NCBI RefSeq assembly: GCF_015240255.1
Contig: NZ_CP061205.1
Coordinates: 2,962,501 to 3,026,500, forward strand
Length of the DNA: 64,000 nucleotides
Direction of reading: 5' to 3'
Origin: Kordiimonas pumila
GTDB lineage: Bacteria; Pseudomonadota; Alphaproteobacteria; Sphingomonadales; Kordiimonadaceae
Shown here piece after piece: positions 25,791-50,873 of this stretch. How positions within the stretch are numbered: the stretch's first letter is position 1; every line of letters starts with the position of its first letter. A program made the position numbers and the translations under genes. The notes beneath the pieces were generated by a model. That model did no database searches. It was not told where the DNA came from and was given only the letters and a program-made list of their open reading frames with translations.

Positions 25791-26174
25791 AAAAAACTTC
25801 CTTACTGTCCAGATAAAACCGAACACCTTTACTTATACCCTCACCACCCCCGCAACTATCATGTCTAAATGGTTGGTATATAAAATAATAGATTCGGCTT
25901 TACTTTGCGAGCCTAAAAAAACAACGTATTATTACATCTTAAATATTTGCATTATATTTATTCATCAAAGCCTTAGTGAAATTTATAAGAACTTGAAAAC
26001 GTGAGTACATGATTAAGCTTGCCTTTTCTTGAAAAGAAAAACAGCACACAACAGCATAGAAACCTGCAGAAGTATAAAAAATTTCCAAACTGTCATTTTT
26101 TCTCTTGCGCCACAGGAATGATCGCATTATATCCAAGCCCGACCCCAAGGGTACCAGTTTCCAAATGTGGAAAT
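25791..26174. other. Intergenic region before tRNA-Thr
   Basis: About 380 AT-rich bases between the divergent MCP gene and the tRNA. No credible gene is seen. TTTTCTT (26024-26030) and AAGAAAA (26034-26040) form a 7-bp inverted repeat. A TTGCGC and a CATTAT element about 40-60 nt upstream of the tRNA may be its promoter, but spacing is not ideal. Confidence 0.45.
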
Positions 26175-28856: not shown

Positions 28857-28874
28857 CCCACCCAGTAGGGTGGG
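28857..28874. promoter_or_regulatory. Candidate LAL-regulator operator upstream of TonB receptor
   Basis: Perfect inverted repeat CCCACCC-AGTA-GGGTGGG, 96 nt upstream of the receptor start. The same arms with a 4 nt spacer occur at 41904-41919, and 14 bases (CCCCACCCAGTAGG) recur at 39144-39157. Confidence 0.6.
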
Positions 28875-28918: not shown

Positions 28919-30064
28919 TCAAAGACTGCGGCCAATAATTTCGCGCATAATTTCATTAGTCCCGCCAAATATTCTGGTAACACGCGCATCTTTCCAAAGG
29001 CCTGCAATCGCATATTCAGTCATATAGCCTGCTCCGCCGTGCAACTGAAGGGCGGCGTCACAGCATTTCCACTGAAATTCAGTGTGCCATAATTTAGCGG
29101 CTGATGCCTCCGTTGCTGTCAGATTACCGCTCACATGGCGGGCCAGTGCCCAATCAATATGCGCCCAACCGACCTGTAATTCTGTTTTTAGATCCGCGAG
29201 CACAAACTTGGTGTTTTGAAACTCTATTACCTTTTTACCAAATGCACTGCGTTCTGACGTAAAGGTAACCGCTTCCATGAAGGCGCGCTGTGCTGAAGCT
29301 TGCGCATAAATGGCAATTGAAAGCCTTTCTTGCGGCAACTGATTCATAAGGTTGGCAAAGCCTTTTCCCTCATCCCCAAGCAAATCGCTTTCATCCACGT
29401 GGACATCTTCAAAAAACAGTTCACACGTGTCAGAACAGTGTTGCCCAATCTTTTCTAATGGGTTGCCGCTTTTAACGCCCGTCAAGCTGGCATCCACCAG
29501 AAAAAGGCTAACACCCTTTGCTCCCGCCGATGGGTCTGTTTTTGCGGCAACAATAATAACATCGGCATGCTTGCCGTTCGTAATGTATGTTTTGCTGCCA
29601 TTTAAGACAAAACCATTACCGCTTTTTTTGGCGGATGTTCGAATTGCCTGCAAATCAGAGCCAGTGGAGGGCTCTGTCATCGCAATCGCACCGACAGCCG
29701 CACCGCTTACCATGCCCGGCAACCACCGGTTTTTTTGTTCTTCTGTGCCGTATTCAAGAATATAATCTGCCACAATGTCGCTATGTACCAGCACAGCTGG
29801 CGGAAAACTCTCGAACCCTAACTCTTCCGCAACAACAGCATTATAGCTAAAATCAAGACCTAGGCCGCCATATTCTTCTGGTATTTGTGGACACAGCATA
29901 CCCGCTTCACCGCATTTAAGCCAAAAGCTACGATCCACCATGCCCTCAGCCTGCCAACGTTTCAAATTGGGGCTAATTTCCGCCGCAATAAACTTACAAA
30001 TACTGTCGCGAAATTGCATGTGAGTATCGTCATAAACTTCACTAACAGAGCGCTTTAATTGCAT
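28919..30064 (-). CDS. Acyl-CoA dehydrogenase
   Basis: A 381-residue FAD-dependent acyl-CoA dehydrogenase introducing an alpha-beta double bond in an acyl-CoA. It has the signatures MTEPSTGSDLQAIRTSA (FAD/substrate site), TYITNGKHADVIIVAAKTD, LHGGAGYMTEYAI and the C-terminal FGGTNEIMREIIGRSL. The catalytic Glu is probably in the GYMTEYAIAGL segment. It is the last gene of the seven-gene operon, 4 nt after the CoA ligase, so it likely acts on an acyl-CoA produced by the same pathway. Confidence 0.93.
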   Translation of the reverse strand: MQLKRSVSEVYDDTHMQFRDSICKFIAAEISPNLKRWQAEGMVDRSFWLKCGEAGMLCPQIPEEYGGLGLDFSYNAVVAEELGFESFPPAVLVHSDIVADYILEYGTEEQKNRWLPGMVSGAAVGAIAMTEPSTGSDLQAIRTSAKKSGNGFVLNGSKTYITNGKHADVIIVAAKTDPSAGAKGVSLFLVDASLTGVKSGNPLEKIGQHCSDTCELFFEDVHVDESDLLGDEGKGFANLMNQLPQERLSIAIYAQASAQRAFMEAVTFTSERSAFGKKVIEFQNTKFVLADLKTELQVGWAHIDWALARHVSGNLTATEASAAKLWHTEFQWKCCDAALQLHGGAGYMTEYAIAGLWKDARVTRIFGGTNEIMREIIGRSL

Positions 30065-30068
30065 AACT

Positions 30069-31625
30069 TTATCCTACACCACGGCTAACATGTTCCCAGT
30101 ATGGCTTCTTTAAAACCTGTTTCAAGACCTTGCCGCTTGCATTCCGAGGAAGCTCAGAAACACATTCAACAAGCCGTGGTACCTTATACCCACCAAGTTT
30201 GGTCCGACAGAAAGCGACCACATCTTCCCTTGAAAGCGGTGCGCCATCTTTCGTTACAATGATCGCAAGCAAGGCTTCACCGTATTTATCGTCAGGTACT
30301 CCGATCACAGCTGCATCAATAATGTCCGGATGCTCAAAAAGCGCATTCTCCACCTCACGCGGGTAGATATTTTCACCGCCGCTTACGACCATATCCTTGA
30401 TACGGTCCTTGATATAAAGGTACCCTTCATCATCAATAATTCCGGCGTCCCCCGTATGAGCCCAGCCCCCTTCAAGAAAAGATGCCGTGGCATCTGGTAA
30501 ATTCCAGTACCCCGGCACGATCTGCGGACCGCGCGCCTGAATTTCACCGACACTGCCTTCTTCTGTAACGATGCGGATGTCACAACCTGGCAAGGGCCTG
30601 CCCGCTGCCAAAAGCAAATGTGTTTCCCCGTCAAGTGCACGCCTGTGCTCATCGGCGCCCAGCAAGGTAAGAATAGCTGTAGTTTCTGTCATCCCATATG
30701 CCTGATACATATCACAGCCAAAAACATTAACCGCACGGCGCAGCACATCTTCTGCAATGGGCGAGGCGCCGTACATCAACATCTTTAAATTGTCCCAGTT
30801 CCGGCTTCTAATGTCCGGTACTTGTGTCAGACACGCCTGTATCATTGCTGGCACAAGAAAGGTAAAAGCCACCTTTTCGGTATCCAACGTATTAACAACA
30901 TCAACAGGGTCAAAATCTGTCTTAAAGATGATCGACATACCGCGCCCCATAGAAAAAGCCGCGATCCAAACTGCTGCCGCATGATACAGCGGCGTTACCA
31001 CAAGTACTGTATCTCCGGCATCTGGTAATCGTGTCACCATATTGGTGCATTGTGCCAAATTGGCAGCGTAATTTTCGTGGGTGACAAGCACCCCTTTTGG
31101 CAAACCAGTAGTCCCGCTTGTATACATCTGATAGAAAATATCATCGGAATGCACGTTGATATCTGGAAGTTGATCTGACTGATTATCAAACCACGTATCA
31201 TACAGCACGGCACCGGCAAGTTCGTCTTCGAACGCCACAAAATGCTTAATCGTAGTTAAACGGTCTTTGATGGAAGCAACAACCTCAGTATATCCTGCGC
31301 CAACAAATAGGGCTTTGGCACCGGCATTTTCTAGAATAAATTCCCATTCAGCGGGCGCTAGGCGGTAATTAAGTGGCACGGGCACAGCACCCGTTTTAGA
31401 GGCAGCCAAATACATCAGCCACATATCAGCGCAGTTTTTGGAAAGGTATCCAAACCGATCCCCTTTCTGGAGGCCAAGTGACACCAAGCCATTTGCGATC
31501 TTGTTCACCTCAAGGGCAGCCTCTGCAAACGTTAAAGCACGTCTATCATCCCTTACACACAGTTGCGCTGGGCGTGACCCCACTAAAAAGTCAAACATGT
31601 CGTGAAACAGTAGGGTCTTATGCAT
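30069..31625 (-). CDS. AMP-forming acyl-CoA ligase (bal-like position)
   Basis: A 518-residue ANL-superfamily ligase: carboxylate + ATP + CoA to acyl-CoA + AMP + PPi. Motifs: P-loop YTSGTTGLPKGV, QAYGMTETTAIL, WAHTGDAGIIDDEGYLYIKD, VVSGGENIYPREVENAL and the catalytic Lys near NASGKVLKQVL. It follows the apc5-position gene directly (TAG then ATG, GGGGGCG as SD). In the acetophenone operon of Aromatoleum the gene after apc5 encodes benzoylacetate-CoA ligase; by position and logic this enzyme would activate the beta-keto acid made by the carboxylase. The actual substrate is unknown. Confidence 0.9.
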   Translation of the reverse strand: MHKTLLFHDMFDFLVGSRPAQLCVRDDRRALTFAEAALEVNKIANGLVSLGLQKGDRFGYLSKNCADMWLMYLAASKTGAVPVPLNYRLAPAEWEFILENAGAKALFVGAGYTEVVASIKDRLTTIKHFVAFEDELAGAVLYDTWFDNQSDQLPDINVHSDDIFYQMYTSGTTGLPKGVLVTHENYAANLAQCTNMVTRLPDAGDTVLVVTPLYHAAAVWIAAFSMGRGMSIIFKTDFDPVDVVNTLDTEKVAFTFLVPAMIQACLTQVPDIRSRNWDNLKMLMYGASPIAEDVLRRAVNVFGCDMYQAYGMTETTAILTLLGADEHRRALDGETHLLLAAGRPLPGCDIRIVTEEGSVGEIQARGPQIVPGYWNLPDATASFLEGGWAHTGDAGIIDDEGYLYIKDRIKDMVVSGGENIYPREVENALFEHPDIIDAAVIGVPDDKYGEALLAIIVTKDGAPLSREDVVAFCRTKLGGYKVPRLVECVSELPRNASGKVLKQVLKKPYWEHVSRGVG

Positions 31626-32354
31626 CTACGCCCCCTCTTTCAAATCTTTAATGCGCGACAAAACAAACTCTGGATTGCTATCTGCCGGGATCATAATCCG
31701 AACATCCATAGCATTAGCATTGACGGCACCGCCTGACTTGAACGCATCGGGGCCAATTGTTTGACACTGCGCGAACAGTTCACTGCTATCCGCTGCAGGA
31801 AAAGCTTTTGCAGCTTGTTCGCCGTGCTGGTGGTTTAATACGGCAACAGAAAGGCCAAAATGGTCAGCAATGCGAAACATGCTGGATGCCATTTGAAGCC
31901 CTGCAGTATGCTTTTCATCAAGCCCAATCTGGACAATAGAAGCCGAACCGGCCTTTCTTAAAATGTCCCCAAGCGCAAGGCTTGCCAAGTCCATGGCATC
32001 TTCATCACTGTTCGATAAAACAGCAGTGGCAGGCCCCGGCAAAACCAGAAGAATATTAGAGAGAACGCCGTTTGCAGACAGGGAAGCAATTGCAGTTTCA
32101 AGTTCACCAAGTAACGCACCGTCTTCAACAGCGTCATTGAGGGCTTCCGCAATATCCTCCGGGTCACCGTCTGTTTGTGTCATATGTTTTTGCAAAAGCG
32201 GTGCAACTGGCAGCATAAAATAATCTGCGGATAATAGCTTCAACACCTCACCGCAAAAAAGCCCCATGCCATCAGGTTGGCCCCAAGGGTCACCCCCTGC
32301 CCTTAAGAGGCCGACGGCATAGTCGTAGCCGTCAATCCAAACCTTCGCACTCAT
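31626..32354 (-). CDS. Small carboxylase-operon protein at apc5 position
   Basis: A 242-residue soluble protein with no motif I can name. It is acidic and alanine-rich with a repeated hydrophobic/acidic helix pattern (AEALNDAVEDGALLGELETA, DEDAMDLASLALGDILRKAG) and no signal peptide. Its start overlaps the HyuB-like stop by 4 nt (ATGA), so it is translationally coupled to the carboxylase. It occupies the place of apc5, a subunit of about 34 kDa loosely associated with the acetophenone carboxylase core; this one is smaller (about 26 kDa). Equivalence is inferred from position only. Confidence 0.6.
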   Translation of the reverse strand: MSAKVWIDGYDYAVGLLRAGGDPWGQPDGMGLFCGEVLKLLSADYFMLPVAPLLQKHMTQTDGDPEDIAEALNDAVEDGALLGELETAIASLSANGVLSNILLVLPGPATAVLSNSDEDAMDLASLALGDILRKAGSASIVQIGLDEKHTAGLQMASSMFRIADHFGLSVAVLNHQHGEQAAKAFPAADSSELFAQCQTIGPDAFKSGGAVNANAMDVRIMIPADSNPEFVLSRIKDLKEGA

Positions 32355-34624
32355 GATGCTACGCTTTCCCCGCGCGCGGCAGCCAGTTCAGCCTCCAGTT
32401 TTGCGATTTTGACGTTAAGTGGATTAGGCATCATCACAGGCGGGGTCACTTCCCCTGCTGGATAATATTTATCTGGCGAACCGGCATAAACCATCGACGG
32501 GTCGTCCCATGAACCAAAATATGGTACATCGCTAGACGGTTTATCTTTAACCCAACTGTTTTTGAAGTCTTCAAAACTCATGCTTTTTGCAAGCCGTTCA
32601 TCTTTGACAACCTGACGCGCAGCGGCGGTTTTCGCCTCATCAACTATCCGTGTCGCAGGGTCAAACACAACATGATATATACGCTCAATAACATCTTCTG
32701 AAACCAAGTCTTCTTCATAGTCGCGCATTACATCAGCGGGGTCACGTTCAAGCGGATCACCAAAGCCACCGCCTGTGCCCTGTGAAATCATATAAAGCTC
32801 GCCGCGCGAAGCCAGTGAATAAGGCAGGAACATAGGATGCGTGCTATATTCGCCTTCTTCAAATGGTTGCTGGTTCATCAATTCTTCGATGGAATAGCGA
32901 AACTTCGATGGATCAGCATGCATTTCATCAAACACATCCACACCCTGAATCCGGCATAGTGGATATGTTGGACACCCATAGCCGCCAAACAGACCAGGGA
33001 TATTCGGGAATTTCGAACCAATTGCTGTCAGCATGAACCCCCATGCGGGGCTGTCCCGCAGCGCCAAAATCATCTGGTACCCCATACCACCGCGTTGCCG
33101 GCCAAAGCCCTGATTGTCGCGCATCAATTTTTTGGAAACCAGTTGCACAAAGGGCATTTCTTCTTCCATGAACTCTTGTTCACCTAGATCGGCCATGGTT
33201 GCAAAAATTGGCGCACAGCTATGCTGTCCGTCGCGGTCAGGCAAAGCACCACCGCCCATGCCGTTAATGTCCGCGCATACGTTCCCAACCATTTCACCAT
33301 GCTGGGTTACACCGCCAAATAGAAACGTGTTAATCATGTTAAACCACGGAGCAATCACACGAGTGTATTTGCTGGGTACGGAATACAGGAACTTCATGGT
33401 TGAAACCTGCGCCACACTCCATGCTGTAAAAACCGACATCATGCTCTGTGCGTTTGGTGTCCCAAAGGCAGGGCGTAAAATGGATTTTTCATCAAACAAA
33501 AACTTGATGGGATTAAGAACCCCTTGGTTCCGAGGCAAATCCGGCCATATGTACGTTAAAAAAAGCTGTGCCAACATCCCCTTCAAGGTAATATCCAGCG
33601 AATTATTAGACCTGTTGGTAAACTCAGGCGATGACCCCCTGTAATCAAAGGTCAAAGTGTCGCCTTTTTTAGTGAGAGTCAGATTAATTTTAATGAGCGC
33701 ATTTTCACGCAAAGTGCCGTCTGTCCACCATGCATGCCGTGTTGTACCGTCTGGCCATTCCTGAAGGCGGCGACGTACTTCTGCCTCAGTGTCTTCAAGG
33801 TTGGAGCGCAAGCAAGACACAACGGCTTCAAGGCCGTAATCCTTTATGGCTTCATGCACACGTTGCTCAAGGCGGCGGCAGGTGAACATTTTCACTTTCA
33901 TATCGGAATACTGTAATTTTGGTTCTCGAACAGAGTTTTGAAGAAACGTAACAATGTCCCGGCGCAGCGTATAATTCTCCGCAACACGGAATGGAGACAT
34001 TTTCAAGCCTTCATCCCATACCTGCTCTGCCATTGAGGGCATACCGCCCGGCTCAATAGCGCCGTTTTCACCTTCGTGTACAGTGGCCCCCACCCATGCA
34101 ACCAGTTCACCTTCCCAGAAAACCGGCATCATCATGGACTGGTCCGTATTATGTGCCTGACCGTAGCGGGCATCATTTACAAGGAACACATCGCCTTCCC
34201 GCACACCCACTGTGGGTTCATTTGTCCAGTATTTATTGATGTACTTGATGGGGTATTGCACAAGGTTACAAAAAATAACCACACCGCCTGTGCTCGCAAG
34301 GCTAAGATCGCCTTTCGCCGTGAAAATAGCGGAAACACAGTCCCCCCATTTCGCCCCCGGTGCTGCGCCCATATTTTCCAGCATATCAAAACTTTCATTG
34401 GCGCCAGCAAGCAGTCGCTCACGGACAATTTCCAGTTTTGCCGGATCATTTTCAGCCTGCATGCTACGTTCTTCTAGAACGGTGCGGTCTTCAATGCCGT
34501 GGTTATCCATGATTTCCTTGTCGGGCGCCAAAAACAGGCTCGTATCCTTCAGGAACTCACTGACAGAATCGCTTTGAACATCTGCCGCACTAGATTTTTG
34601 GGTATTTACGTTCTCAATGCTCAT
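32351..34624 (-). CDS. HyuB-family ketone carboxylase subunit (apc4-like)
   Basis: A 757-residue hydantoinase B/acetone carboxylase alpha-type protein. Features: DNHGIEDRTVLEERSMQAEN, ASTGGVVIFCNLVQYPIKYI, FLVNDARYGQAHNTDQSMMM, FDYRGSSPEFTNRSNNSLD, GVTQHGEMVGNVCADINGMG and the C-terminal SQGTGGGFGDPLERDPADVM. In acetone and acetophenone carboxylases this subunit combines the phosphorylated enol of the ketone with bicarbonate-derived carboxyl phosphate. The start at 34624 follows GAGGAGAGATACA; the upstream extension in frame is just the ribosome site. It lies 11 nt after the HyuA-like subunit. Confidence 0.88.
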   Translation of the reverse strand: MSIENVNTQKSSAADVQSDSVSEFLKDTSLFLAPDKEIMDNHGIEDRTVLEERSMQAENDPAKLEIVRERLLAGANESFDMLENMGAAPGAKWGDCVSAIFTAKGDLSLASTGGVVIFCNLVQYPIKYINKYWTNEPTVGVREGDVFLVNDARYGQAHNTDQSMMMPVFWEGELVAWVGATVHEGENGAIEPGGMPSMAEQVWDEGLKMSPFRVAENYTLRRDIVTFLQNSVREPKLQYSDMKVKMFTCRRLEQRVHEAIKDYGLEAVVSCLRSNLEDTEAEVRRRLQEWPDGTTRHAWWTDGTLRENALIKINLTLTKKGDTLTFDYRGSSPEFTNRSNNSLDITLKGMLAQLFLTYIWPDLPRNQGVLNPIKFLFDEKSILRPAFGTPNAQSMMSVFTAWSVAQVSTMKFLYSVPSKYTRVIAPWFNMINTFLFGGVTQHGEMVGNVCADINGMGGGALPDRDGQHSCAPIFATMADLGEQEFMEEEMPFVQLVSKKLMRDNQGFGRQRGGMGYQMILALRDSPAWGFMLTAIGSKFPNIPGLFGGYGCPTYPLCRIQGVDVFDEMHADPSKFRYSIEELMNQQPFEEGEYSTHPMFLPYSLASRGELYMISQGTGGGFGDPLERDPADVMRDYEEDLVSEDVIERIYHVVFDPATRIVDEAKTAAARQVVKDERLAKSMSFEDFKNSWVKDKPSSDVPYFGSWDDPSMVYAGSPDKYYPAGEVTPPVMMPNPLNVKIAKLEAELAAARGESVAS

Positions 34625-34635
34625 TGTATCTCTCC

Positions 34636-36777
34636 TCAACCTTGTTCACTGCGCTGCAACCAGCCTGATCCATACTTTCCAATGGAGATTTGCCAGCCGG
34701 GCTCGACAAGGAAGGTTGTTGACTGTGATGTGATAACCGCAGGCCCTTGCACAACAGAGCCAAAATCAAGACTTTCAAGGTCATAAAACCCTGTTTCAAT
34801 AGGGTCATCATGGCCCACAAAATAGCAGGCGCGCTTCACCGGCGCGGCAGGCGCATCCTTAAGGTCACTGCCTTTTGGCAGAACGCCAGAAAATTTCAGC
34901 TTTGGTGTTTGCACGTAGGACGCAACACGAACCGTATTGACACGAATACCCGCTTCAGGGGCCTGACTGCCTTCGCCGTATCTTTTGCCGTAGTCCTTCC
35001 CAAACACACCAATAACATCAAGAAGATCATCAGCATTTTCAATACGTGTTTTACTAACAACTACGGCAGTTTGCGCCAGTTGGTTACCATAACGCATATC
35101 CAGTTCAAGCCGGTGCTCAATGTCTTTTTCGTCGTAGCCTTGACGAATAAGGTCTGCTTTTCCGCGCTCTTCAAGCTGTTCGATATGTGCATTAAAGGAA
35201 TCAAAATCAGAAAGCAGTTTCCGTGTACCACTGTCATACACCTGCAAGTAAAGGGATCGCTCATGGATATGAAGCTGGTCCATATTACCCGCACCAACAG
35301 CAGAGAAAATTGAGCTAAACGGCGGCACAAAAACCCTATTAATACCAATCACACTGGCAATACCGCATGCATGCAAAGCACCGTTACCACCGTATGAAAG
35401 CAGCGTGAAATTATCAGGCTCATAACCACGCGCGCGCAGTTCCTGTGCAATACCATTGGCCATATCATTATCAATTTTTTGCTTGATAAGTTTGGCAACC
35501 TCAATCTCATCGATGTCTAGTGGCTTGCCAATCGTCCGGCGCATAACGCTTTTCGCGCGGTCTTCGTTCAGGGTAATCCTGCCACCCGCATAATCATCAG
35601 GTTGCAAGTACCCAAGGACCAGATCAGCATCAGTGACCGTTGCAGCCCTACCGCCTTTATCGTAGCAGGCTGGCCCGGGGTCAGACCCCGCACTCTCAGG
35701 GCCAACAGCGATTGTTTTACGAAGCCTATCATACCGGGCGATAGATCCACCGCCTGCCCCAAGCGTTACAAGGTGCACCATCGGCACATTAACCATCCAG
35801 CGCTCAATAACAGGGTTAAAATCATAAAACTTCACCCCGCCTTTAACCACTAGGCCAATATCAAATGATGTCCCGCCCATATCACTGCAAACAATGTTGC
35901 CAATGTCTGTTTCAGCGGCCAAATGCTCTGAAGCACTGATGCCAGCAACAGGGCCTGAATGGATAGTTTGCAAAGCATCCGTTGAATTAAGCTGCGCCAT
36001 CCCACCAGAATTATGCACCACCTGCATCGGGCGCTCGTGACCATTATCCCTCAGGTTTAATTCTAGTGACGAAAGACCCAGATACATGGCCTTATGCAAA
36101 AAAGCATCAATGATAGCTGATGACGTTCTTGCATACTCACCTTTACGGCCCACAACCATGTGTGCCAAAATAATTGGTGCTGAACCAAGTGTATGTTCAG
36201 GGTATTCTTCCCTGATTATTTCCTCTACACGGATTTCGTGGGCTGGATTCACAACTGAGTTCACAAGGCTGACGACGTAAGCCTGCGCGCCCCTATCTAC
36301 CAGACGGCGAACCTGCTTGCGTACATCTTCCTCATCAAGCGGCATAATCACTTCACCGCGTTCTGATAGGCGTTCACGCACCCCGGCAATAAGCGGAATA
36401 GGCACAATCGGATCAGGCCGCTCGGCCATCGGCAGGTCTTTTTTGAACCGCTCAGATACACCTTCACCGTAGCCACGCCCACGGCTTAAGGGAACAGTGC
36501 TTTCAAAACCAGCCGTTGTAATCAAGCCAACTTTTGGGCCCCTACGCTCAATCAGCGCGTTTGTACCAAGAGTTGTAGCATAGCGGACGCTATCCACTTG
36601 CTGCATAACATCTTCGAGTGACAAACCAATCTGGTCATAAGCATGCGCCAGCGACGCATTGAAACCAAGTGCAAGGTTTTGATGTGTTGTAAGGGCCTTG
36701 GCCGTTACATAATGATCATCCCAAACAAGGAAACAATCCGTAAAGGTGCCCCCAATATCTACTGAAACTCTACGCAT
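34636..36777 (-). CDS. HyuA-family ketone carboxylase subunit (apc3-like)
   Basis: A 713-residue hydantoinase A/oxoprolinase-type ATPase of the actin-like fold: VDIGGTFTDCFLVWDD (phosphate loop) at the N-terminus, TNALIERRGPKVGLITTAGF, NSGGMAQLNSTDALQTIHSG, CSDMGGTSFDIGLVVKGGV, ESAGSDPGPACYDKGGRAAT and LLSYGGNGALHACGIASVIG. Such subunits use ATP to phosphorylate the substrate ketone or bicarbonate. Size (about 77 kDa) and place correspond to Apc3. 2 nt separate it from the small subunit upstream. Oxoprolinase is unlikely because of the gamma-like partner. Confidence 0.88.
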   Translation of the reverse strand: MRRVSVDIGGTFTDCFLVWDDHYVTAKALTTHQNLALGFNASLAHAYDQIGLSLEDVMQQVDSVRYATTLGTNALIERRGPKVGLITTAGFESTVPLSRGRGYGEGVSERFKKDLPMAERPDPIVPIPLIAGVRERLSERGEVIMPLDEEDVRKQVRRLVDRGAQAYVVSLVNSVVNPAHEIRVEEIIREEYPEHTLGSAPIILAHMVVGRKGEYARTSSAIIDAFLHKAMYLGLSSLELNLRDNGHERPMQVVHNSGGMAQLNSTDALQTIHSGPVAGISASEHLAAETDIGNIVCSDMGGTSFDIGLVVKGGVKFYDFNPVIERWMVNVPMVHLVTLGAGGGSIARYDRLRKTIAVGPESAGSDPGPACYDKGGRAATVTDADLVLGYLQPDDYAGGRITLNEDRAKSVMRRTIGKPLDIDEIEVAKLIKQKIDNDMANGIAQELRARGYEPDNFTLLSYGGNGALHACGIASVIGINRVFVPPFSSIFSAVGAGNMDQLHIHERSLYLQVYDSGTRKLLSDFDSFNAHIEQLEERGKADLIRQGYDEKDIEHRLELDMRYGNQLAQTAVVVSKTRIENADDLLDVIGVFGKDYGKRYGEGSQAPEAGIRVNTVRVASYVQTPKLKFSGVLPKGSDLKDAPAAPVKRACYFVGHDDPIETGFYDLESLDFGSVVQGPAVITSQSTTFLVEPGWQISIGKYGSGWLQRSEQG

Positions 36778-36779
36778 GA

Positions 36780-37190
36780 TTAATGCCCACCCTTCTTATG
36801 GTGATGTGGCGGCGCCACAAACTCAGGCCCCATAACCGGCTCTGACAATTCTTCCCTTTCTGCCCATTGTTTTTTAAGGGCATCAATATCCAGTTCAATG
36901 TCATGTGCAGGTGGGTGACCCGGTGGCAAATACTCAGCTTCTGCAAGGCGGGCACAGTGCGGGCAATAATATTCAACGATTTGTACCCAGTTTGCGTCTG
37001 GTGCAAATGTGATTTCATATTTGTTTGGGTCAATAATGGGGGCATGAATCTCTTTTGGATCCCGCGGCCTAACCTTCATGAAATGCTTATAAGATTCTCT
37101 GGCAGAACCCAGCTCTGTATCGCACGAACGGCAAACCCAGTTCTCAGATTCCAGATCTATAATCAGTGCATCTGTAATAAAAACACGCAT
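36780..37190 (-). CDS. Acetone-carboxylase-gamma-like subunit (apc2-like)
   Basis: A 136-residue protein (about 15 kDa) of the acetone carboxylase gamma family, carrying CRSCDTELGSARESYKHF and YYCPHCARLAEAEYLPPGHP. The two CxxC pairs probably bind zinc, as the small subunit of acetophenone carboxylase does. A His-rich tail (PPHHHKKGGH) ends the protein. This family occurs in acetone/acetophenone carboxylases and not in hydantoinases or oxoprolinases, so it is the gene that identifies the cluster as a carboxylase. GGAG lies before ATG 37190. Confidence 0.88.
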   Translation of the reverse strand: MRVFITDALIIDLESENWVCRSCDTELGSARESYKHFMKVRPRDPKEIHAPIIDPNKYEITFAPDANWVQIVEYYCPHCARLAEAEYLPPGHPPAHDIELDIDALKKQWAEREELSEPVMGPEFVAPPHHHKKGGH

Positions 37191-37194
37191 GGCA

Positions 37195-39057
37195 CTATTC
37201 TCCTTTACGCTCTACAAGCAGGTCATTGTTGGCCGTGACAGTGAACTGCCAGCCAGGCTTGATCCATGCTGTAAAAAATTCTTCCTCGACAAGGCACGGC
37301 CCAGCAGCACAGTCACCTACGGCTAGTTCCTCCAGTTTATAGAGGGGCAGTCCACCTGAAATATCGCGTATTTCTGAGGATTTCGCCTGATGTGTAGTTG
37401 CCGTAACTGCCGCATTTAGCCCAATTGTTGGAATTGGCCGAACAACTTCCAGTTCCACAAGCCCCCCTACCCCAGCAGGTGCTTCCGCAAGCGGCATAAC
37501 AGCCGTACCAACAACCGCCCGCCAAACCAACTCGCAGCCTTCAATGTCAAAACCTTCACTGGTCATCGACCGAGCAGCCGTTTCCATAAGCACAGCTTGA
37601 ATGGCCTCAATATCTGTCGCATCAAAGCTACCAACTGACTTACTGTGAACGTGGCGAATAGGGCTAAAACCAATACCAAAGGCACTGAAAACTGCCGCAT
37701 ACCGAGGTATCAAAACAGTATTAATCCCGGCTTTTTCAGCAATACCGCAGGCACTCATCGGGCCAGCCCCGCCAAAGGCCATTAGGGTTGTGACATCATC
37801 GCCGTTTGCAGGGCACGCTATTGCTTTCGCAATTTTTTCATCATACGCGTCAACTGCACGCGTGATTGCAACGTCAAGGCTAATCCCAAGCGGCGTCGCA
37901 ATATTATCTGTGACAGCCCTCAGGGCTCTATCTCGGTCCAAAACCAGTTTGCCCCCAAAGAAACTTTTAGGATCAAACAGGCCTGCCACCAGCAAGACAT
38001 CAGTTATGGTTGCCTCGGTGCCGCCGCGCCCAAAACAAGCAGGCCCCGGCAATGAACCAACACTTTCAGGCCCCACTTTAACAGTTCCATCTACAACCTT
38101 TAGGATTGAGCCACCACCAACAGCAACGCTGTTGATACGTGCCATTGGGAACGCCACAGGCGCATCTTCAACATGCCCGCAGCGGTCTTCAGCAACCTTA
38201 CCGTTTTCAAGCACCAAATGGTCTGTCGTTGTGCCCCCAATATCAATGGAAACCATTTTGTCATTACCATAAAGGGCCGCAAGAACAGCAACACCCTCAG
38301 CACCGCCGCGCGGGCCAGAAGAATAGGTGTTGATCGCAATAGACCGTGAAACACGGGTGGAACTACCATCATTGCGGAAAATAAGAAGTGGATTTCGAAT
38401 GCGCCGATAGCGCAGTTTCTCTTCCGCATTATGTAGGAACTGCTCCATTGATGGATGCAGAAAAGCATTAATAACGCTTGTCCAGCCACGCTGTGTGGCG
38501 TCAGCACCCGGCACCAGATCAGCTGAAAACAATAAGGGCACTGCCCCCAGAAGGTGACGCGGGAACGCAGCATAAAGTGCTCTTTTAAGCTTTGGCTCGT
38601 TTGCAGCAAAACTATCGCCGCCAAGGCACACAACAAGACGGCTGGCCCCTCTGGCCACTAGGTTACGAACTGTTTGCACAACTTCCCTGTCGGACTGCCC
38701 GCCTACATAACTGAACCGTGTATCAATAAAGGCATCGAACAGCTCTGGTGAGGCTGCGTATAAAGCATCCTTCTGCTTTTCATCAGACAATAATATACCA
38801 ATACGCGGCCCTTTGCGCTGCGCTATGGCATTCGTTCCTTGTGTTGTTGAATACCTAAGATGATCAATTGATGCTACAAGCTCAAGCAACTCAGGTTTAT
38901 CATCCAATTTATCAGACAGTGCTGACAAGCCCGTCATAAGGCATTCTGTTAAATCGTGCGGTGTCGTTAACGTTTTTGCATGGACGACTTTGTTGCCGTC
39001 AAATGCACATATATCAGTTAGCGTTCCGCCATTATCTATGCTGACCAATAGCCCCAT
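37195..39057 (-). CDS. HyuA-family ketone carboxylase subunit (apc1-like)
   Basis: A 620-residue second HyuA-type ATPase, shorter than the apc3-like one. N-terminal SIDNGGTLTDICAFDGNKVV, TTQGTNAIAQRKGPRIGILL, FRNDGSSTRVSRSIAINTYS, VSIDIGGTTTDHLVLENGKV, ESVGSLPGPACFGRGGTEAT and MAFGGAGPMSACGIAEKAGI show an intact nucleotide-binding fold. Two different HyuA-like subunits in one operon is the particular feature of acetophenone carboxylase, which uses two ATP. Start at MGLLVSIDNGG (39057) with GGGAGGG upstream. It is the first gene of the operon, 124 nt below the regulator. Confidence 0.88.
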   Translation of the reverse strand: MGLLVSIDNGGTLTDICAFDGNKVVHAKTLTTPHDLTECLMTGLSALSDKLDDKPELLELVASIDHLRYSTTQGTNAIAQRKGPRIGILLSDEKQKDALYAASPELFDAFIDTRFSYVGGQSDREVVQTVRNLVARGASRLVVCLGGDSFAANEPKLKRALYAAFPRHLLGAVPLLFSADLVPGADATQRGWTSVINAFLHPSMEQFLHNAEEKLRYRRIRNPLLIFRNDGSSTRVSRSIAINTYSSGPRGGAEGVAVLAALYGNDKMVSIDIGGTTTDHLVLENGKVAEDRCGHVEDAPVAFPMARINSVAVGGGSILKVVDGTVKVGPESVGSLPGPACFGRGGTEATITDVLLVAGLFDPKSFFGGKLVLDRDRALRAVTDNIATPLGISLDVAITRAVDAYDEKIAKAIACPANGDDVTTLMAFGGAGPMSACGIAEKAGINTVLIPRYAAVFSAFGIGFSPIRHVHSKSVGSFDATDIEAIQAVLMETAARSMTSEGFDIEGCELVWRAVVGTAVMPLAEAPAGVGGLVELEVVRPIPTIGLNAAVTATTHQAKSSEIRDISGGLPLYKLEELAVGDCAAGPCLVEEEFFTAWIKPGWQFTVTANNDLLVERKGE

Positions 39058-39070
39058 AACCGGAGACCCT

Positions 39071-39085
39071 CCCACTTGAGGTGGG
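39071..39085. promoter_or_regulatory. Second candidate operator, imperfect, before apc1-like gene
   Basis: CCCAC-TTGAG-GTGGG, with the following GGGAAAAC also resembling the flank of the 28857 site. The spacer differs from the main motif by 3 nt, and the site overlaps the ribosome-binding area, so its role as operator is doubtful. Confidence 0.35.
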
Positions 39086-39143
39086 GAAAACCCACCCGTT
39101 CCTTATCCGTGGATACTGGTTTGCAGTAAGAAGGGGCCGCCCA

Positions 39144-39157
39144 CCCCACCCAGTAGG
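39144..39157. promoter_or_regulatory. Candidate LAL-regulator site upstream of carboxylase operon
   Basis: CCCCACCCAGTAGG is identical over 14 bases to the left part of the 28857-28874 palindrome; the right arm is degenerate (ATAGGATGG). It lies 87 nt upstream of the apc1-like start, comparable to the other sites. Confidence 0.55.
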
Positions 39158-39181
39158 ATAGGATGGACAAAAGAAATGTAT

Positions 39182-41830
39182 TTAATCGATCAATTTATAA
39201 TGCCGCGCTGCTTGAACAGCTTGCATTCTATTGTTTACAGACAGTTTTGCGTAAACGTTCCTGAGATGGAATTTTACCGTGTTTCTGGAAACAGCAAGCC
39301 TGTCAGCAAGGTCATTATTTGAGTGGCCACTTGCTAAGAACTTCAAAATATCAACCTCGCGCGGCGTTAATGATTCGCCGAGTGCAAGTTCTCCGTCGCT
39401 GTCGCTATCAAAGCCATTTGCCTTGCCCCCACTCCCACCAGCACGGGCAACGAGGTCTTTTACATATCCAGCGATTGGGTCATCTACCCACTCTGGCGAA
39501 TGCGCAAAATTTTCTGCAGACAGGCGGTTCAGCACTTTGCTAACGGCAGGCCCTTCATCCAGGAAAATACGCCTTAAGCCGCCCGGTGCTGCAAGTTGCA
39601 AGGCTTCCATCATCACACGGCTTGAATGTGCATGCTGTTCGTCCATGTCCAGGCTAATTGCCAATAGCGTTTTCAGCCTGATAAGGCGCCTGATGCGTTT
39701 CTTCAGGGTTGCCGTTCTTATTTCAGCTTGCAGAATTGCCCGTGCTTCACCTTGTTGTTTGCTGTGAACCAGAAACCGCGCATAGGTAATGCGCTGTACT
39801 TCAAGTTCGCTGGAGACAAAACACAGTTGTCCATCAAGGGACATCCGTGCTTCTGAACCAAGCGCCCGCAACCGCCGTTCAGCGGTATCAAAATCACCAT
39901 TTAGAGTTGCTTCCCGCGCAAGTTCAGCACGCCCACAATTAACAAGCCGTGTTAGACCGTATTTATGACCAGAGGTAATTAACCGTTCATATATTTCATG
40001 GGCATATTCCTGTTTGCCTTTCAAAACGGCCATACGCCCCAAATTCACCATACCAAGACAGTATGGGTCCACGATGCATTGCTGCTCGATAAGCGGCAAA
40101 TAAGCCTGAATAACATCTTCTGCCTCGCGGAGCCTGTCACTTTCATAAAGGGCATCACCCAAGTGAGCTGCAACCACACCGCCCGCTAGTGCCCCCGGCG
40201 GAGCGTCAGATTCTATACCTTCCAGTGCACGGGTTAAATCGGCTGTGGCCTCAGCAAGATTACCCTCAGCCAGTTTCAAGCTGGCATGAATGGAATCAGC
40301 GTAAGATTTACCAAAAAAACTACCCGATTTTTCATGCAATGGCTGCGCACGTAGCAACAGATCATACGCTTCTTGAAATTGGCTTTGAGCGCCAAGCCAA
40401 AAAGCATGCGCATTATAGGCAACTCCCTTTGAAAAGGATTGTTCATCACTGAGCCATTTTTCTGCATCGCGAGCAACTTCGCCCATTTCCATCACTCTAT
40501 CTTCAGCCGCCAGCACAAACGCGCGAAGAATTTCCATCTCGGCACGGGCCGCATTATCATCATCAGGCAAGTTTTTTTCTCGCCAATCAATCAGATTATG
40601 CGCCTTGGAAAATTCACGCTGAAACCCGTAGGCAATTGAGGCAGCTTCAACAAGTTTCACAGAGCCTTGTAGCATCTGACTGTCTATTTGTTCTGCAAAC
40701 GAAATCACAAGCCCCAGCCGTTCTTCACGGATAAGCTTGCCGACAACCTGCTCCAAGCAATCGATAGCCATAGTCTGGTCACCAGCCGCCAAATAGTGTT
40801 TCACAGCCATTTCGCGCATGCCTTGACCCGCAAACCAATTAGCGATTTCAACATGCATCTTTGCAAGCTGTTCATTACTGTTAGAACGTGCCAACCGCCC
40901 CCTTAAAAAATCACCAAAAACAGAGTGAAACCTGAACCAGTGCCGATCACCGTCAACAGGATCAAGAAAAAGGCCTGAACGGCTTAGATCATTCAGTGTA
41001 TTCAAACCATCCTGCTGTCCAGTAAGCGTATTAACAAGACTGTCACACAGTCTGTCAGGCAAGCATATTTTCAGTAACAGGTCTTGAACACAGCTCTCTT
41101 GTAAGGAAAATACTTCTTCAGCTAAATAATCCAGCACTTCCTGATTCATGCCGCTGCGCATAGCCCGAACAGCTGTATGCCCACCGGACTCGAGGGATAG
41201 ATTAAGGAATTGCAGAGCTGCCGGCCAGCCATCAACCCGGCTATAGAGCCGCTGGACCTCTTCTAGGCCCAGATGGGTCCTCTCCGTCATAAACTGGTAA
41301 GCTTCACCAAGGTCAAACTTAAGGTCCACACTTCCAAGAACAACAGCTTTGCCCATTAATTTCAGTTTAGAACTGGCAATATTGGGGGTGGTGCGTGTCG
41401 CGATTACAATACGTTTGCTTTCGGGTAAAGCGGCTATGATTTGCCTCAGCTGTGCATCCACCTGCGGGTCTTGAATTTGATCATATTCATCAAAAAGAAA
41501 AGTGGCAGACCCCTCTATAGTCGCAAACCAACCAGCAACATCATGCCCTGCATTTTTAAGGGAGGCCGCTGTTGTCTTATCGGCGATACGGGCACAAGCG
41601 TCACTGAACAAACGCATAAAACGGGAAACGTCTGCATCTTGCGAAACAGGGGTAATCCAAGCAACCTTTGCACCATGTTCCTCAGCATCTTCAGCAAGCT
41701 GGCGCAGCAAAGTAGATTTGCCATACCCCGCTGGGGCCTGAATAAGGATTAGCTGCGCATCCTTTGCTTGCCGTATGCGGTCTAGAAGATTTTCGCGGAT
41801 TAAATCCACCCTTAATGTCCCGTTTTTCAT
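39182..41830 (-). CDS. MalT/LAL-type LuxR-family transcriptional activator
   Basis: An 882-residue STAND-class regulator: Walker A LIQAPAGYGKSTLLRQLAED near residue 28, Walker B ATFLFDEYDQI, an arginine-sensor TRTTPN region, a long helical TPR-like sensor (residues about 330-780), and a C-terminal LuxR helix-turn-helix LTPREVDILKFLASGHSNND with RNTVKFHLRNVYAKL. MalT-like proteins bind ATP and an inducer, then oligomerise on promoter sites. It is encoded between the carboxylase operon (same strand) and the divergent thiolase, and repeated GGGTGG-type palindromes occur at the neighbouring promoters. It is probably the pathway activator. Confidence 0.92.
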   Translation of the reverse strand: MKNGTLRVDLIRENLLDRIRQAKDAQLILIQAPAGYGKSTLLRQLAEDAEEHGAKVAWITPVSQDADVSRFMRLFSDACARIADKTTAASLKNAGHDVAGWFATIEGSATFLFDEYDQIQDPQVDAQLRQIIAALPESKRIVIATRTTPNIASSKLKLMGKAVVLGSVDLKFDLGEAYQFMTERTHLGLEEVQRLYSRVDGWPAALQFLNLSLESGGHTAVRAMRSGMNQEVLDYLAEEVFSLQESCVQDLLLKICLPDRLCDSLVNTLTGQQDGLNTLNDLSRSGLFLDPVDGDRHWFRFHSVFGDFLRGRLARSNSNEQLAKMHVEIANWFAGQGMREMAVKHYLAAGDQTMAIDCLEQVVGKLIREERLGLVISFAEQIDSQMLQGSVKLVEAASIAYGFQREFSKAHNLIDWREKNLPDDDNAARAEMEILRAFVLAAEDRVMEMGEVARDAEKWLSDEQSFSKGVAYNAHAFWLGAQSQFQEAYDLLLRAQPLHEKSGSFFGKSYADSIHASLKLAEGNLAEATADLTRALEGIESDAPPGALAGGVVAAHLGDALYESDRLREAEDVIQAYLPLIEQQCIVDPYCLGMVNLGRMAVLKGKQEYAHEIYERLITSGHKYGLTRLVNCGRAELAREATLNGDFDTAERRLRALGSEARMSLDGQLCFVSSELEVQRITYARFLVHSKQQGEARAILQAEIRTATLKKRIRRLIRLKTLLAISLDMDEQHAHSSRVMMEALQLAAPGGLRRIFLDEGPAVSKVLNRLSAENFAHSPEWVDDPIAGYVKDLVARAGGSGGKANGFDSDSDGELALGESLTPREVDILKFLASGHSNNDLADRLAVSRNTVKFHLRNVYAKLSVNNRMQAVQAARHYKLID

Positions 41831-41903
41831 TCACTTCCTGACCTTGTTATACCACCATTTCTAGTAGGCACCCTGATAATTCAACTAAACAGGCGCGCCC
41901 GCC

Positions 41904-41919
41904 CCACCCTTTCGGGTGG
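41904..41919. promoter_or_regulatory. Candidate operator between regulator and thiolase genes
   Basis: CCACCC-TTTC-GGGTGG, a perfect 6-bp inverted repeat with a 4 nt spacer, 73 nt from the regulator start and 61 nt from the thiolase start. It has the same architecture as 28857-28874 and could serve both divergent promoters. Confidence 0.6.
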
Positions 41920-41980
41920 TTTTGACCTGACTGTAAGCTGAAAAACTGCGCCTTAAGATTGCTAAAACAAGGAAAACTCT

Positions 41981-43177
41981 ATGCCCGAACACGTTATTGT
42001 TGCCGGTATCTCCATGATTCCGTTTAAGAAACCCGGTGATAGCGCTGATTACCGCACTATGGGGTCAGCGGCTGCCAAAGCGGCCCTTGAAGACGCCGGT
42101 GTTTCTTACAGTGACGTCAAACAGGCATATGCTGGCTACGTATACGGAGACAGCACATCAGGGCAAGCGGCGCTTTATCCTGTTGGACTAAGCGGTATTC
42201 CTATCGTTAATGTTAATAACAACTGCGCAACAGGATCAACCGCCCTATTTTTAGCGCGGCAGGTGATTGCAAACGGTGTTACCGACTGTGTTATTGCTCT
42301 GGGGTTTGAGCAAATGTCACCCGGATCACTTGCTTCCGTTTACAAGGACCGCCCCGATCCACTTGCAGACTTTCTTAGCACAATTGATGAACGTTTTGGC
42401 ACATCAGATGCACCTATGGCACTCAGGCTTTTTGGGGGTGCCGCGCTTGATTACCAAGAGCGTTACGGCGCATCCGATGAAACATTCGCCATGATCACCG
42501 AGAAGGCCCGAAAGCATGCAGGCAAAAATCCCCATGCCCTTCTTCGTGCCCCCATTACTGTTGAAGAGGTTTTAGCCTCACCAAAAATGTTTGGGCCGCT
42601 TACACGGTTTCAGTGCTGCCCCCCAACATGCGGTGCAGCCGCAGCCATTTTATGCAACGAAGAATTTGCAAAAAAACATAACATCAATGGTGATATTGTT
42701 ATAAAATCTCAAGCCTTCACAACGGATGAAGCAGCCTCCTTTGACAAAGATGATCTTCGCAACACAGTAGGAGCTGGCATGTCCAGAAAGGCTGCTGAGC
42801 AGGTATACACTGACGCCGGTATTAATCCAGAAGACCTTGATGTTATTGAACTTCATGACTGTTTCACCGCAAACGAACTCTTAAGCTACGAATCGCTAAT
42901 GCTAACACCAGAAGGCACAGCTGAGCGCTTTATAAGGGACGGCAATAACACCTATGGTGGCCAGTTTGTTGTTAACCCGTCTGGTGGATTACTGGCGAAA
43001 GGTCACCCCCTTGGAGCAACCGGCCTTGCGCAGTGCTATGAATTAACATCCCACCTAAGGGGAAGTGCTGGTGAGAGGCAAGTTGAAAGAGCGAGGCTTG
43101 CCCTGCAACACAACATAGGCCTTGGCGGCGCCTGCGTTGTGACACTTTATGAAAACACCAAAGGACACGCCAGATAG
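41981..43177 (+). CDS. SCPx-type thiolase / lipid-transfer protein
   Basis: A 398-residue thiolase-fold protein of the sterol-carrier-protein-X group. The nucleophile Cys is in VNVNNNCATGSTALFLA, with ELHDCFTANELLSYE, GGLLAKGHPLGATGLAQCYE and QHNIGLGGACVVTLYE supplying the other catalytic residues, so it looks competent for thiolysis of a beta-ketoacyl-CoA. AAGGAAA precedes ATG 41981. It is divergent from the LAL regulator and followed by an NADP-dependent reductase. In the proposed pathway it would cleave the beta-ketoacyl-CoA formed after carboxylation and CoA ligation. Confidence 0.9.
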   Translation: MPEHVIVAGISMIPFKKPGDSADYRTMGSAAAKAALEDAGVSYSDVKQAYAGYVYGDSTSGQAALYPVGLSGIPIVNVNNNCATGSTALFLARQVIANGVTDCVIALGFEQMSPGSLASVYKDRPDPLADFLSTIDERFGTSDAPMALRLFGGAALDYQERYGASDETFAMITEKARKHAGKNPHALLRAPITVEEVLASPKMFGPLTRFQCCPPTCGAAAAILCNEEFAKKHNINGDIVIKSQAFTTDEAASFDKDDLRNTVGAGMSRKAAEQVYTDAGINPEDLDVIELHDCFTANELLSYESLMLTPEGTAERFIRDGNNTYGGQFVVNPSGGLLAKGHPLGATGLAQCYELTSHLRGSAGERQVERARLALQHNIGLGGACVVTLYENTKGHAR

Positions 43178-43211
43178 AAAACATTACACTGGGGAAATAA
43201 AGGGGAAGACC

Positions 43212-44219
43212 ATGACTGTAAAAATTGCAAAAAGCTGGCATTTCAATAAACGTCCAAAAAATATGATCGAAAGCGACACTTTTGTTCTCAAAGAACTGCC
43301 AATACCACCGCTGAAAGACGGCGAATTCCTCTTTAAAACCATCTATCTTTCCCTTGATGCCACAAACCGTGTTTGGTTAAGCGACTGGGATATTTATATG
43401 GAGCCGGTCCACATTGGTGACCCCATGCGAGGCTTTGTTTTTGGGCAGATTATTGAAAGCAGAAATCCTAACTTTCCGGTTGGCCGCTATGCCGCTGGCC
43501 TCCATACATGGTCTGACCATATTATCACTAACGGGGATAGCTTCGACCTTTTCCCTGTACTAGATGGCCTTGACCTTGCTGAAACCTTCGCGATCCTTAG
43601 CGTCGCGGGCCCAACCGCCCATGTCGGACTGCACGAAATTGGTGGTCTAAAGGAAAATGAGACTGTTGTTGTGAGCGGTGCTGCAGGTGCCGTCGGCACC
43701 ATTGTGGGGCAAATCGCTAAAATCCGGGGTTGCCGTGTTATAGGCATTGCCGGGTCTGATGAAAAATGCGCCATGATTGTCAATGAGTTCGGATATGACG
43801 CTGCTATAAATTATAAAACGGAGGATGTAACAGAGGCTCTTGGCAAACTGTGCCCAGATGGCATTGATCTCTGCTTTGAAAATGTGGGCGGTGATATTCT
43901 AGATGCATCCCTAACACACATGAAGGACTTTGGCAGGGTTGTCATTTGCGGCCTTATATCCAGCTATAACAGCTCAGAGCCTGTTCCGGGACCTTACATG
44001 TTCAGGAACCTTATCATGCGGCGGCTAACAGTACGCGGGTTTGTTATCCTGGATCATGCTGACATTATGCCAGATGTACTTAAAGAGCTCGCTAGCTGGG
44101 TTGCTAACGGTAAATTGAAAATGCCCACACATATTGTGGACGGCCTAGAAGCCGCCCCAAATGCCCTAAACCTTCTCTATACAGGCGGAAACACAGGTAA
44201 GCTACTGGTAAAAATATAA
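43212..44219 (+). CDS. Medium-chain NADP-dependent enone/alkenal reductase
   Basis: A 335-residue zinc-independent medium-chain dehydrogenase of the PTGR/leukotriene B4 dehydrogenase-like family. SLDATNRVWLSD is the substrate-domain start, and the Rossmann motif is VVSGAAGAVGTIVGQIAKIR with GCRVIGIAGSDEKCAMI and INYKTEDVTEAL. Family members reduce alpha,beta-unsaturated ketones with NADPH. Start at MTVKIAK (43212) with AGGGGAAG upstream; the 35 nt after the thiolase stop suggests a two-gene unit. It could reduce an enone precursor before carboxylation (inference). Confidence 0.88.
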   Translation: MTVKIAKSWHFNKRPKNMIESDTFVLKELPIPPLKDGEFLFKTIYLSLDATNRVWLSDWDIYMEPVHIGDPMRGFVFGQIIESRNPNFPVGRYAAGLHTWSDHIITNGDSFDLFPVLDGLDLAETFAILSVAGPTAHVGLHEIGGLKENETVVVSGAAGAVGTIVGQIAKIRGCRVIGIAGSDEKCAMIVNEFGYDAAINYKTEDVTEALGKLCPDGIDLCFENVGGDILDASLTHMKDFGRVVICGLISSYNSSEPVPGPYMFRNLIMRRLTVRGFVILDHADIMPDVLKELASWVANGKLKMPTHIVDGLEAAPNALNLLYTGGNTGKLLVKI

Positions 44220-50497: not shown

Positions 50498-50873
50498 TCT
50501 CCATGCAAAATGGCTTAACCGGACCACCGTCCGGACAAATTTATTGGGATAATTAAGCCTCTAAGCCCTGGTTCAAGCTGTCCACATCTGAGCTTCGGAA
50601 ATGCGCGGGCGCGCCAAGTCCTTTATGAAACTTCGCAGCCAAAGGCTGGGTGGGCAGTGAAAGTTGCCGGTAGACTTCGATCGAAACTACTAAAGGAACT
50701 ATATTTCAATATTGTGACGCGATTTAATATCGCTTCTTTTATGTGATACTTTATTCAGGCTTTACACGTGCAGACCAGTATACCAGAAGGCGCTAATTCC
50801 AATTGACCCAGCAGCTATAATTTTGCACGTTGCAGGCACAGTACAGTCTGCTTGCTTTAAACAGGGTTTCTCT

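Follow-up and report, generated by a model that had tools for sequence, protein, structure and literature searches.

What does a gene cluster resembling the acetophenone carboxylase (Apc) operon of Aromatoleum aromaticum do in Kordiimonas pumila, and on which ketone? The window analyzed here is a stretch of 64,000 nucleotides (contig NZ_CP061205.1, positions 2,962,501 to 3,026,500) from a genome assembled as a single 4.04-Mb contig; positions below are those of the window. It carries a ten-gene package, an apc operon with genes for a LAL/MalT-type transcription regulator, an SCPx-type thiolase, an enone reductase and a TonB-dependent receptor around it. We propose, with a probability of roughly 0.8, that this package is a self-contained ketone-catabolic regulon built round an Apc-type carboxylase. 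The recurring layout of the cassette and the palindrome conserved in it are new here.

When the core subunits were compared with chains of solved structure, the top-scoring chain was in every case the respective counterpart in acetophenone carboxylase 5l9w. The alpha subunit scored 566.8 bits against Apc 5l9w_B (309.3 against acetone carboxylase, 299.0 and 283.5 against oxoprolinase/hydantoinase types), beta 295.7 bits against 5l9w_A (146.9 against acetone carboxylase, 99.2 against hydantoinase), gamma 118.8 bits against 5l9w_C (33.5 against acetone carboxylase), and alpha' 302.5 bits against Apc alpha' (5l9w_b), with 215.2 bits against the other Apc kinase. The available text of Weidenweber 2017 (PMC5214803) names as Apc hallmarks a pair of ASKHA kinases, four cysteines in gamma and the gene order apcABCD(E), or alpha'-gamma-alpha-beta-(epsilon). 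The window shares this gene order along with the closest-subunit matches; the adenosine, phosphate 1 and phosphate 2 motifs of ASKHA kinases are present in both alpha and alpha' (DNGGTLTD, DIGGTTTD and GSLPGP in alpha'), and gamma has CxxC pairs at residues 20 and 76, hence four cysteines. The alpha fingerprint R/KERiDsxG, as given in the same text, reads RERLSERG here, with RER and G kept and Asp replaced by Ser. Among the sequences looked at, the Asp is also missing in loci L030–L033, L040 and L016 and kept in L015, L025, L083 and L100.

The 242-aa protein encoded after beta, called unknown in the preliminary description and without a Pfam or NCBIfam match, is, judged by its predicted model, the epsilon subunit, with a fold like that of solved ApcE (9fou). 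The AlphaFold2 (AF2) model has a pLDDT of 90.5, and its top Foldseek match was ApcE 9fou_A (E 1.2e-5, probability 1.00, 12% identity); UroD chains score equally high in VIA. The profile of its family (74 open reading frames, ORFs) finds the ApcE of A. aromaticum EbN1 at 4e-10 with filters off, but not with default filters.

The ORF check confirmed the minus-strand operon from 39057 to 28919 with gaps of 11 nt or less, as well as the ORF positions, sizes and spacing given in the preliminary description. The gaps from alpha' to the acyl-CoA dehydrogenase gene are 4, 2, 11, -4, 0 and 4 nt, and Pfam and NCBIfam matches agree with the gene names assigned there. The receptor gene begins 157 nt past the operon end, outside the span 28919..44219 then described. 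The reductase ORF is open from the ATG at 43149; the ATG at 43212, preceded by a purine-rich stretch, is the likelier start. The features are as follows (L030–L033 are four related loci treated below).

26515..28761, minus strand: TonB-dependent receptor, 748 aa, transcribed as a unit of its own downstream of an operator-like palindrome (Pfam Plug and TonB_dep_Rec_b-barrel; copies at the same place in L030–L033)
28858..28873, no strand: operator-like palindrome CCACCC-TACT-GGGTGG, upstream of the receptor gene (motif search, conservation)
28919..30064, minus strand: acyl-CoA dehydrogenase, 381 aa, optional member (Pfam; also in L031, whereas the stretches of L030, L032 and L033 gave no match)
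30069..31625, minus strand: AMP-forming acyl-CoA ligase of FadD-like type, 518 aa, proposed to activate the beta-keto acid (NF004837, 508.6 bits, cut-off 476)
31626..32354, minus strand: epsilon subunit, 242 aa, UroD-like barrel (AF2 model, Foldseek)
32351..34624, minus strand: beta subunit, HyuB-like, 757 aa, ApcD counterpart (5l9w_A)
34636..36777, minus strand: alpha subunit, HyuA-like ASKHA kinase, 713 aa, ApcC counterpart (5l9w_B, ASKHA motifs)
36780..37190, minus strand: gamma subunit, 136 aa, two CxxC, ApcB counterpart (5l9w_C, PF08882)
37195..39057, minus strand: alpha' subunit, second ASKHA kinase, 620 aa, ApcA counterpart (5l9w_b, motifs)
39146..39161, no strand: operator-like palindrome CTATCC-TACT-GGGTGG, upstream of the apc operon and with one mismatch (motif search, conservation)
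39182..41830, minus strand: LAL/MalT-type transcription regulator, 882 aa (TPR_MalT, GerE, STAND NTPase; copies in L030–L033)
41904..41919, no strand: operator-like palindrome CCACCC-GAAA-GGGTGG between the regulator and thiolase genes (motif search, conservation)
41981..43177, plus strand: SCPx-type thiolase, 398 aa, divergent from the regulator (6hsj, 435 bits; NF006102, 640 bits, cut-off 436)
43212..44219, plus strand: NADPH enone (double-bond) reductase, curcumin/LTB4 reductase family (4b7c, 285.8 bits; NF058644, 315.8 bits, below the cut-off of 440)

Apc-type sets are common: a gamma scan with one genome per species confirmed at least 555 relatives in more than one clade, and 78 loci were kept. 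Neighborhoods were surveyed in 85 loci selected on gamma similarity, L024 and L090 being duplicates of each other. The four nearest loci, from Sphingopyxis NORP11 (L030), Parasphingorhabdus (L031), Sphingopyxis BWSM_133 (L032) and Sphingosinicella soli DSM 17328 (L033), have the same layout as the window: reductase and thiolase genes divergent, then LAL, alpha', gamma, alpha, beta, epsilon, ligase and receptor. Identity to the window is 80% for alpha, 78–84% for beta, 71–73% for the receptor, 52–62% for LAL and 31–44% for epsilon. Recurrence of this layout in four Sphingomonadales genomes is more than chance. The acyl-CoA dehydrogenase gene is an optional member, found in two of the five cassettes (the window and L031). 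A rearranged set, L040, has relatives of the reductase (52%), LAL (34%), ligase (55%) and thiolase (63%) and a dissimilar TonB receptor (28%).

Among 18 congeners a single one (G008) has an apc set, which belongs to another branch of the same clade (alpha 59% identical). An empty-site test for a recent acquisition would rest on the flanking genes, but PhoX and the CitMHS transporter encoded there have no close match in the 18 congeners except one at 49%. The GC content (0.482 in the cassette, 0.447 and 0.473 in the flanks) is indecisive.

What ties the genes around the operon to the carboxylase is a shared palindrome. Alignment of the intergenic stretches of the cassettes revealed CYACCC-N4-GGGTGG, which stands, with at most one mismatch, at three places in all five cassettes: before the receptor gene, before alpha', and between the LAL and thiolase genes. 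In L040 it is found before the reductase gene, between the receptor and LAL genes, and before alpha' (two of the three sites with one mismatch), so the palindrome travels with the genes through rearrangement. The K. pumila genome has CYAYCC-N4-GGGTGG at four places, three of them in the cassette, and its reversed control at none; the fourth (C1:892225) lies inside an ORF and was taken as chance. The form CYACCC-N4-GGGTRG occurs 4, 3, 3 and 3 times in the genomes of L030, L031, L032 and L033, a single one of these sites lying outside the cassette; the L040 genome has it once. Since the reversed control also occurs (0, 0, 2, 4 and 1 times in these five genomes, respectively), it is the position of the palindrome, not its number, that carries weight. 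The extra match in G419, on an 8.8-kb contig with genes that look phage-like by eye, was also taken as chance.

The regulator has the domains of the LAL/MalT type: an N-terminal STAND NTPase, MalT-like TPR and a C-terminal LuxR helix-turn-helix (GerE). A clade-wide count considered 83 loci, of which 74 were scored over the 500 bp before the first apc gene (L035, L052, L063, L068, L094, L098, L099, L106 and L107 lack upstream sequence or a scorable alpha). A palindrome with at most one mismatch was present in 28 of the 74 loci, and a scrambled-arm control in 2 of 74. It was found in 18 of 28 loci with a LAL gene in view vs. 10 of 46 without (Fisher p 0.0004). Leaving out the five cassettes, the figure is 13 of 23 with a LAL gene (p 0.006), the loci being related and so not independent. 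Seven loci have perfect palindromes and no LAL gene in view, the gene possibly lying beyond the stretch covered. Because LAL genes go with palindromes, we infer that the LAL protein is the likely binder. Because the palindrome precedes all three transcription units, it is very likely that a single regulon unites the receptor, the regulator, the carboxylase, the thiolase and the reductase, which bears out the preliminary description of a carboxylase cluster with its own receptor, regulator and thiolase. The palindrome would thereby define the regulon, linking the carboxylase with receptor, reductase and thiolase, and would offer a direct way to the inducer and so to the substrate.

Two other operons of the apc type in the same clade lie near a sigma-54 factor gene (L014) or a sigma-54 activator gene (L062), with no LAL gene in view. 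Both also have a gene for a GTP-binding protein, CobW-like by eye, and L146 is alike by eye.

How close is the window enzyme to that of Aromatoleum? The available text of PMC5214803 and PMC4729919 has only one Apc enzyme characterized as of 2017, from a denitrifier using it with or without oxygen. We located the A. aromaticum apc operon in G404 (L143). Its ApcC equivalog scores 1580 bits, above cut-off, and its residues 81, 281, 282, 285, 333, 344 and 345 are those listed in the portion of PMC5214803 at hand; on these two grounds L143 is taken to be the strain EbN1 copy. The window alpha is 38.9% identical to EbN1 ApcC. In trees the cassette falls into clade 1, a large group that also holds members from Rhodococcus, Cupriavidus, Neorhizobium, Azotobacter, Aromatoleum diolicum, Solimonas, Hydrocarboniphaga, Gordonia and others, separate from EbN1 Apc and from a second clade (clade 2). 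The trees have long branches and call for caution; the best tree has a 20-row Apc side with an SH-aLRT of 93. In approximately unbiased (AU) tests, a joint clade with acetone carboxylase was rejected (p-AU 0.0185), one with hydantoinases narrowly escaped rejection (0.0616), and one with EbN1 Apc alone was not rejected (0.22). Branching with hydantoinases, named in the preliminary description as the outcome that would tell against a carboxylase, is not seen in the trees, yet such a joint clade is not formally rejected. By sequence the window enzyme is not that of Aromatoleum, and it appears to belong to a different Apc-type clade. No studied member of clade 1 was found, and no publication on its function, cassette or operator was recognized in a search that left most subscription journals outside.

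In ApcABCDE with Bal of EbN1 (5l9w, 9fou), five subunits stand in the same order with a CoA ligase next; the two ASKHA kinases, four gamma cysteines and an ApcE-like epsilon are also common to both. The window differs in its alpha (39% identical), its pocket residues, a FadD-like ligase and the added SCPx thiolase, enone reductase and TonB receptor; it has a LAL regulator, whereas EbN1 uses the AdiRS two-component system, as described in the accessible part of PMC4729919. Acetone carboxylase AcxABC (5m45, 5svb) is likewise an ATP-dependent, biotin-free ketone carboxylase with a gamma subunit, but it has three subunits in the order alpha-beta-gamma, without alpha' or epsilon, and matches every shared window subunit more weakly. 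A copy on Rhodococcus RHA1 pRHL2 belongs to clade 1 (alpha 58%). The apc1-4 genes of R. ruber Chol-4 are described no further than as a putative anaerobic acetophenone carboxylase cluster in the part of PMC6498646 available. For Hpe and Xcc (acetovanillone, 4-hydroxyacetophenone) the compound carboxylated is likewise an aryl methyl ketone, or the phosphate of one, but these are biotin-dependent three-component carboxylases; the aryl ketone routes described in the available text of PMC9618137 and PMC8461187 use biotin-dependent carboxylases or a Baeyer-Villiger monooxygenase.

The genes beside relatives bear on the product. A candidate CoA ligase or CoA transferase gene is found in 51 of the 85 loci, a thiolase gene in 25 and an acetoacetyl-CoA synthetase homologue in 22; among the 61 loci of at least 17 kb, the first is present in 46 and the second in 20. 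The 22 loci hold 24 synthetase genes, 19 of them on the same strand and at most 4.4 kb after beta (19 of 85 loci), with those of L049, L052 and L059 elsewhere or reversed; both synthetases tested passed the TIGR01217 cut-off. A synthetase activating a beta-keto acid is what would be expected if the complex carboxylates ketones, which supports the view that Apc-type complexes of clade 1 make a beta-keto acid. A short-chain dehydrogenase/reductase (SDR) gene at most 200 bp after beta in nine loci would fit a secondary-alcohol precursor of the ketone. The closest solved chains to the window ligase are fatty-acyl- and feruloyl-CoA synthetases. The thiolase is a close homologue of SCP2-thiolase type-1 (6hsj), with the motifs NNNCATG, HDCF and GHPLGATG; this SCPx type handles alpha-branched beta-ketoacyl-CoA.

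From the gene set, families, motifs, predicted epsilon fold, layout and palindrome conservation, all read in the sequence, we infer the reaction, direction and substrate of the pathway. The TonB receptor would import a ketone, an enone or a precursor, and the reductase would saturate the C=C bond beside the carbonyl. By analogy with Apc, on which the roles of both kinases rest, alpha would phosphorylate the enolized ketone and alpha' form carboxyphosphate from bicarbonate; beta and gamma would hold the core, with the epsilon barrel joining the complex for turnover. The complex would thus place CO2 on the carbon alpha to the carbonyl and so yield a beta-keto acid, which the AMP-forming ligase would turn into a CoA ester. 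The thiolase would cleave this ester to an acyl-CoA and acetyl-CoA (or an alpha-substituted analogue), and the acyl-CoA dehydrogenase, where present, would start the acyl part on beta-oxidation. All three transcription units would be controlled by the LAL regulator through CYACCC-N4-GGGTGG. The reading first put forward, in which an Apc-type ketone carboxylase works with a CoA ligase and an SCPx thiolase, is supported by the subunit matches, gene order and ApcE-like fold and sequence, and also by the synthetases beside relatives and the shared operator.

Several findings weigh against this proposal. (i) The NCBIfam Apc equivalog cut-offs are missed by all four core subunits (bits/cut-off 335.7/1250 for NF042960, 136.3/250 for NF042974, 590.1/1500 for NF042975 and 331.9/1500 for NF042976). 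(ii) The proposed ketone pocket reads T-I-H-P-I-H-L in the window alpha vs. L-F-N-P-I-Q-T in EbN1, with five of seven residues differing; in 86 alpha sequences taken as clade 1, T81 is kept in 86, H282 in 85, H344 in 83 and L345 in 85. (iii) The window alpha' differs at two of three residues proposed for its Apc pocket; in 75 sequences (two of them EbN1-type), Asp274 is kept in all, whereas Ser replaces Glu248 in 64 and Asp replaces Lys281 in 73. These changed residues make acetophenone doubtful as substrate, and they leave the roles of alpha and alpha' to analogy. (iv) The epsilon gene is missing in 9 of 68 loci with room for it, and alpha' in five. (v) Many relatives have no ligase/transferase or thiolase gene nearby, and the window ligase is FadD-like, neither Bal-like nor an acetoacetyl-CoA synthetase. 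(vi) The joint clade with hydantoinases is just short of rejection (p-AU 0.062).

The loci L050, L074, L081, L083 and L084 are gamma-alpha-beta sets of clade 1 with no alpha' gene called and no epsilon relative, and are possibly three-subunit ketone carboxylases. The sets of L050, L083 and L084 adjoin LAL and enone reductase genes.

Which ketone, then, would the carboxylase take? The reductase matches 4b7c, LTB4 12-hydroxydehydrogenase, and double-bond and pulegone reductases. Of the 85 loci, 12 have a relative, and in L040, L050, L083 and L084 that relative (51–57%) adjoins apc and LAL genes. As a member of the enone double-bond family, it makes an enone, or the saturated ketone made from it, our best guess for the substrate. 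A TonB receptor in the cassette points to a compound that does not easily diffuse inward. The preliminary description had taken both the acyl-CoA dehydrogenase and the reductase as clues to a larger or unsaturated ketone; the former is weakened by its presence in only two of five cassettes. Apocarotenoid ketones were considered and set aside, as the carotenoid oxygenase family PF03055 is present in four of five cassette genomes vs. 8 of 12 congeners tested, with no enrichment. For phytone, a tentative lead, a literature search gave no paper naming the compound among the matches listed.

A general scavenger carboxylating short alkyl ketones (butanone, pentanone) is unlikely. It would suit the acetoacetyl-CoA synthetases and SDR genes beside relatives, which fit small ketones and secondary alcohols. 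The five cassettes, however, have no acetoacetyl-CoA synthetase gene in the stretch covered and a FadD-like ligase instead, and a reductase, SCPx thiolase and TonB receptor should be needless for small diffusible ketones. On another reading, the substrate preference of SCPx thiolases would point to an alpha-substituted ketone, for example a cyclic one: the reductase would saturate a cyclic or terpenoid enone, the ring would be carboxylated beside the carbonyl, the ligase would form the cyclic beta-ketoacyl-CoA, and the thiolase would open the ring. We regard this as a long shot; if true, rings would be cleaved via carboxylation, not Baeyer-Villiger oxygen insertion, by one transferable regulon. 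Plain carboxylation of acetophenone or ring-substituted acetophenones toward benzoyl-CoA is very unlikely: gene order and subunits are as in A. aromaticum, but alpha is distant, the pocket is changed, the equivalog cut-offs are missed, the ligase is not Bal-like, and no part for the reductase or the receptor is known there. Least probable is an ATP-dependent amidohydrolase (lactamase or hydantoinase type) opening a cyclic amide, with ligase and thiolase degrading the acid, since despite the homology of alpha and beta to hydantoinases, the unrejected joint clade, and an EbN1 set (L147), probably a gamma-lactamase, that also adjoins AMP ligase and acyl-CoA dehydrogenase genes, hydantoinases have two subunits and no gamma (according to the available text of PMC5214803), the window has gamma, alpha' and epsilon that all match Apc, and relatives pair with acetoacetyl-CoA synthetase.

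Beyond the ketone carboxylase of clade 1, six clade 2 loci (L019, L020, L021, L022, L023 and L026; alpha 40–42% identical to the window) keep the gene order apart from epsilon, which lies between gamma and alpha; downstream, all six have AMP ligase, SCPx-like thiolase and TonB receptor genes. A ChsH2-type zinc-ribbon/OB-fold protein is encoded between ligase and thiolase in the three checked (L019, L020 and L026). A haloarchaeal plasmid, that of Halorientalis marina (L018), carries a five-gene operon of the apc type accompanied by ligase genes and a thiolase gene; its alpha is 46% identical to that of the window. Beside the cassette, at 23925-25826, is a gene for a PAS-domain chemotaxis receptor, with relatives (46% and 29%) in L020 (15041-16945) and L014 (9138-10628), both also near operons of the apc type. 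At 45673-50527, the PhoX alkaline phosphatase gene adjoins that of a 983-aa protein which by eye resembles an outer-membrane receptor.

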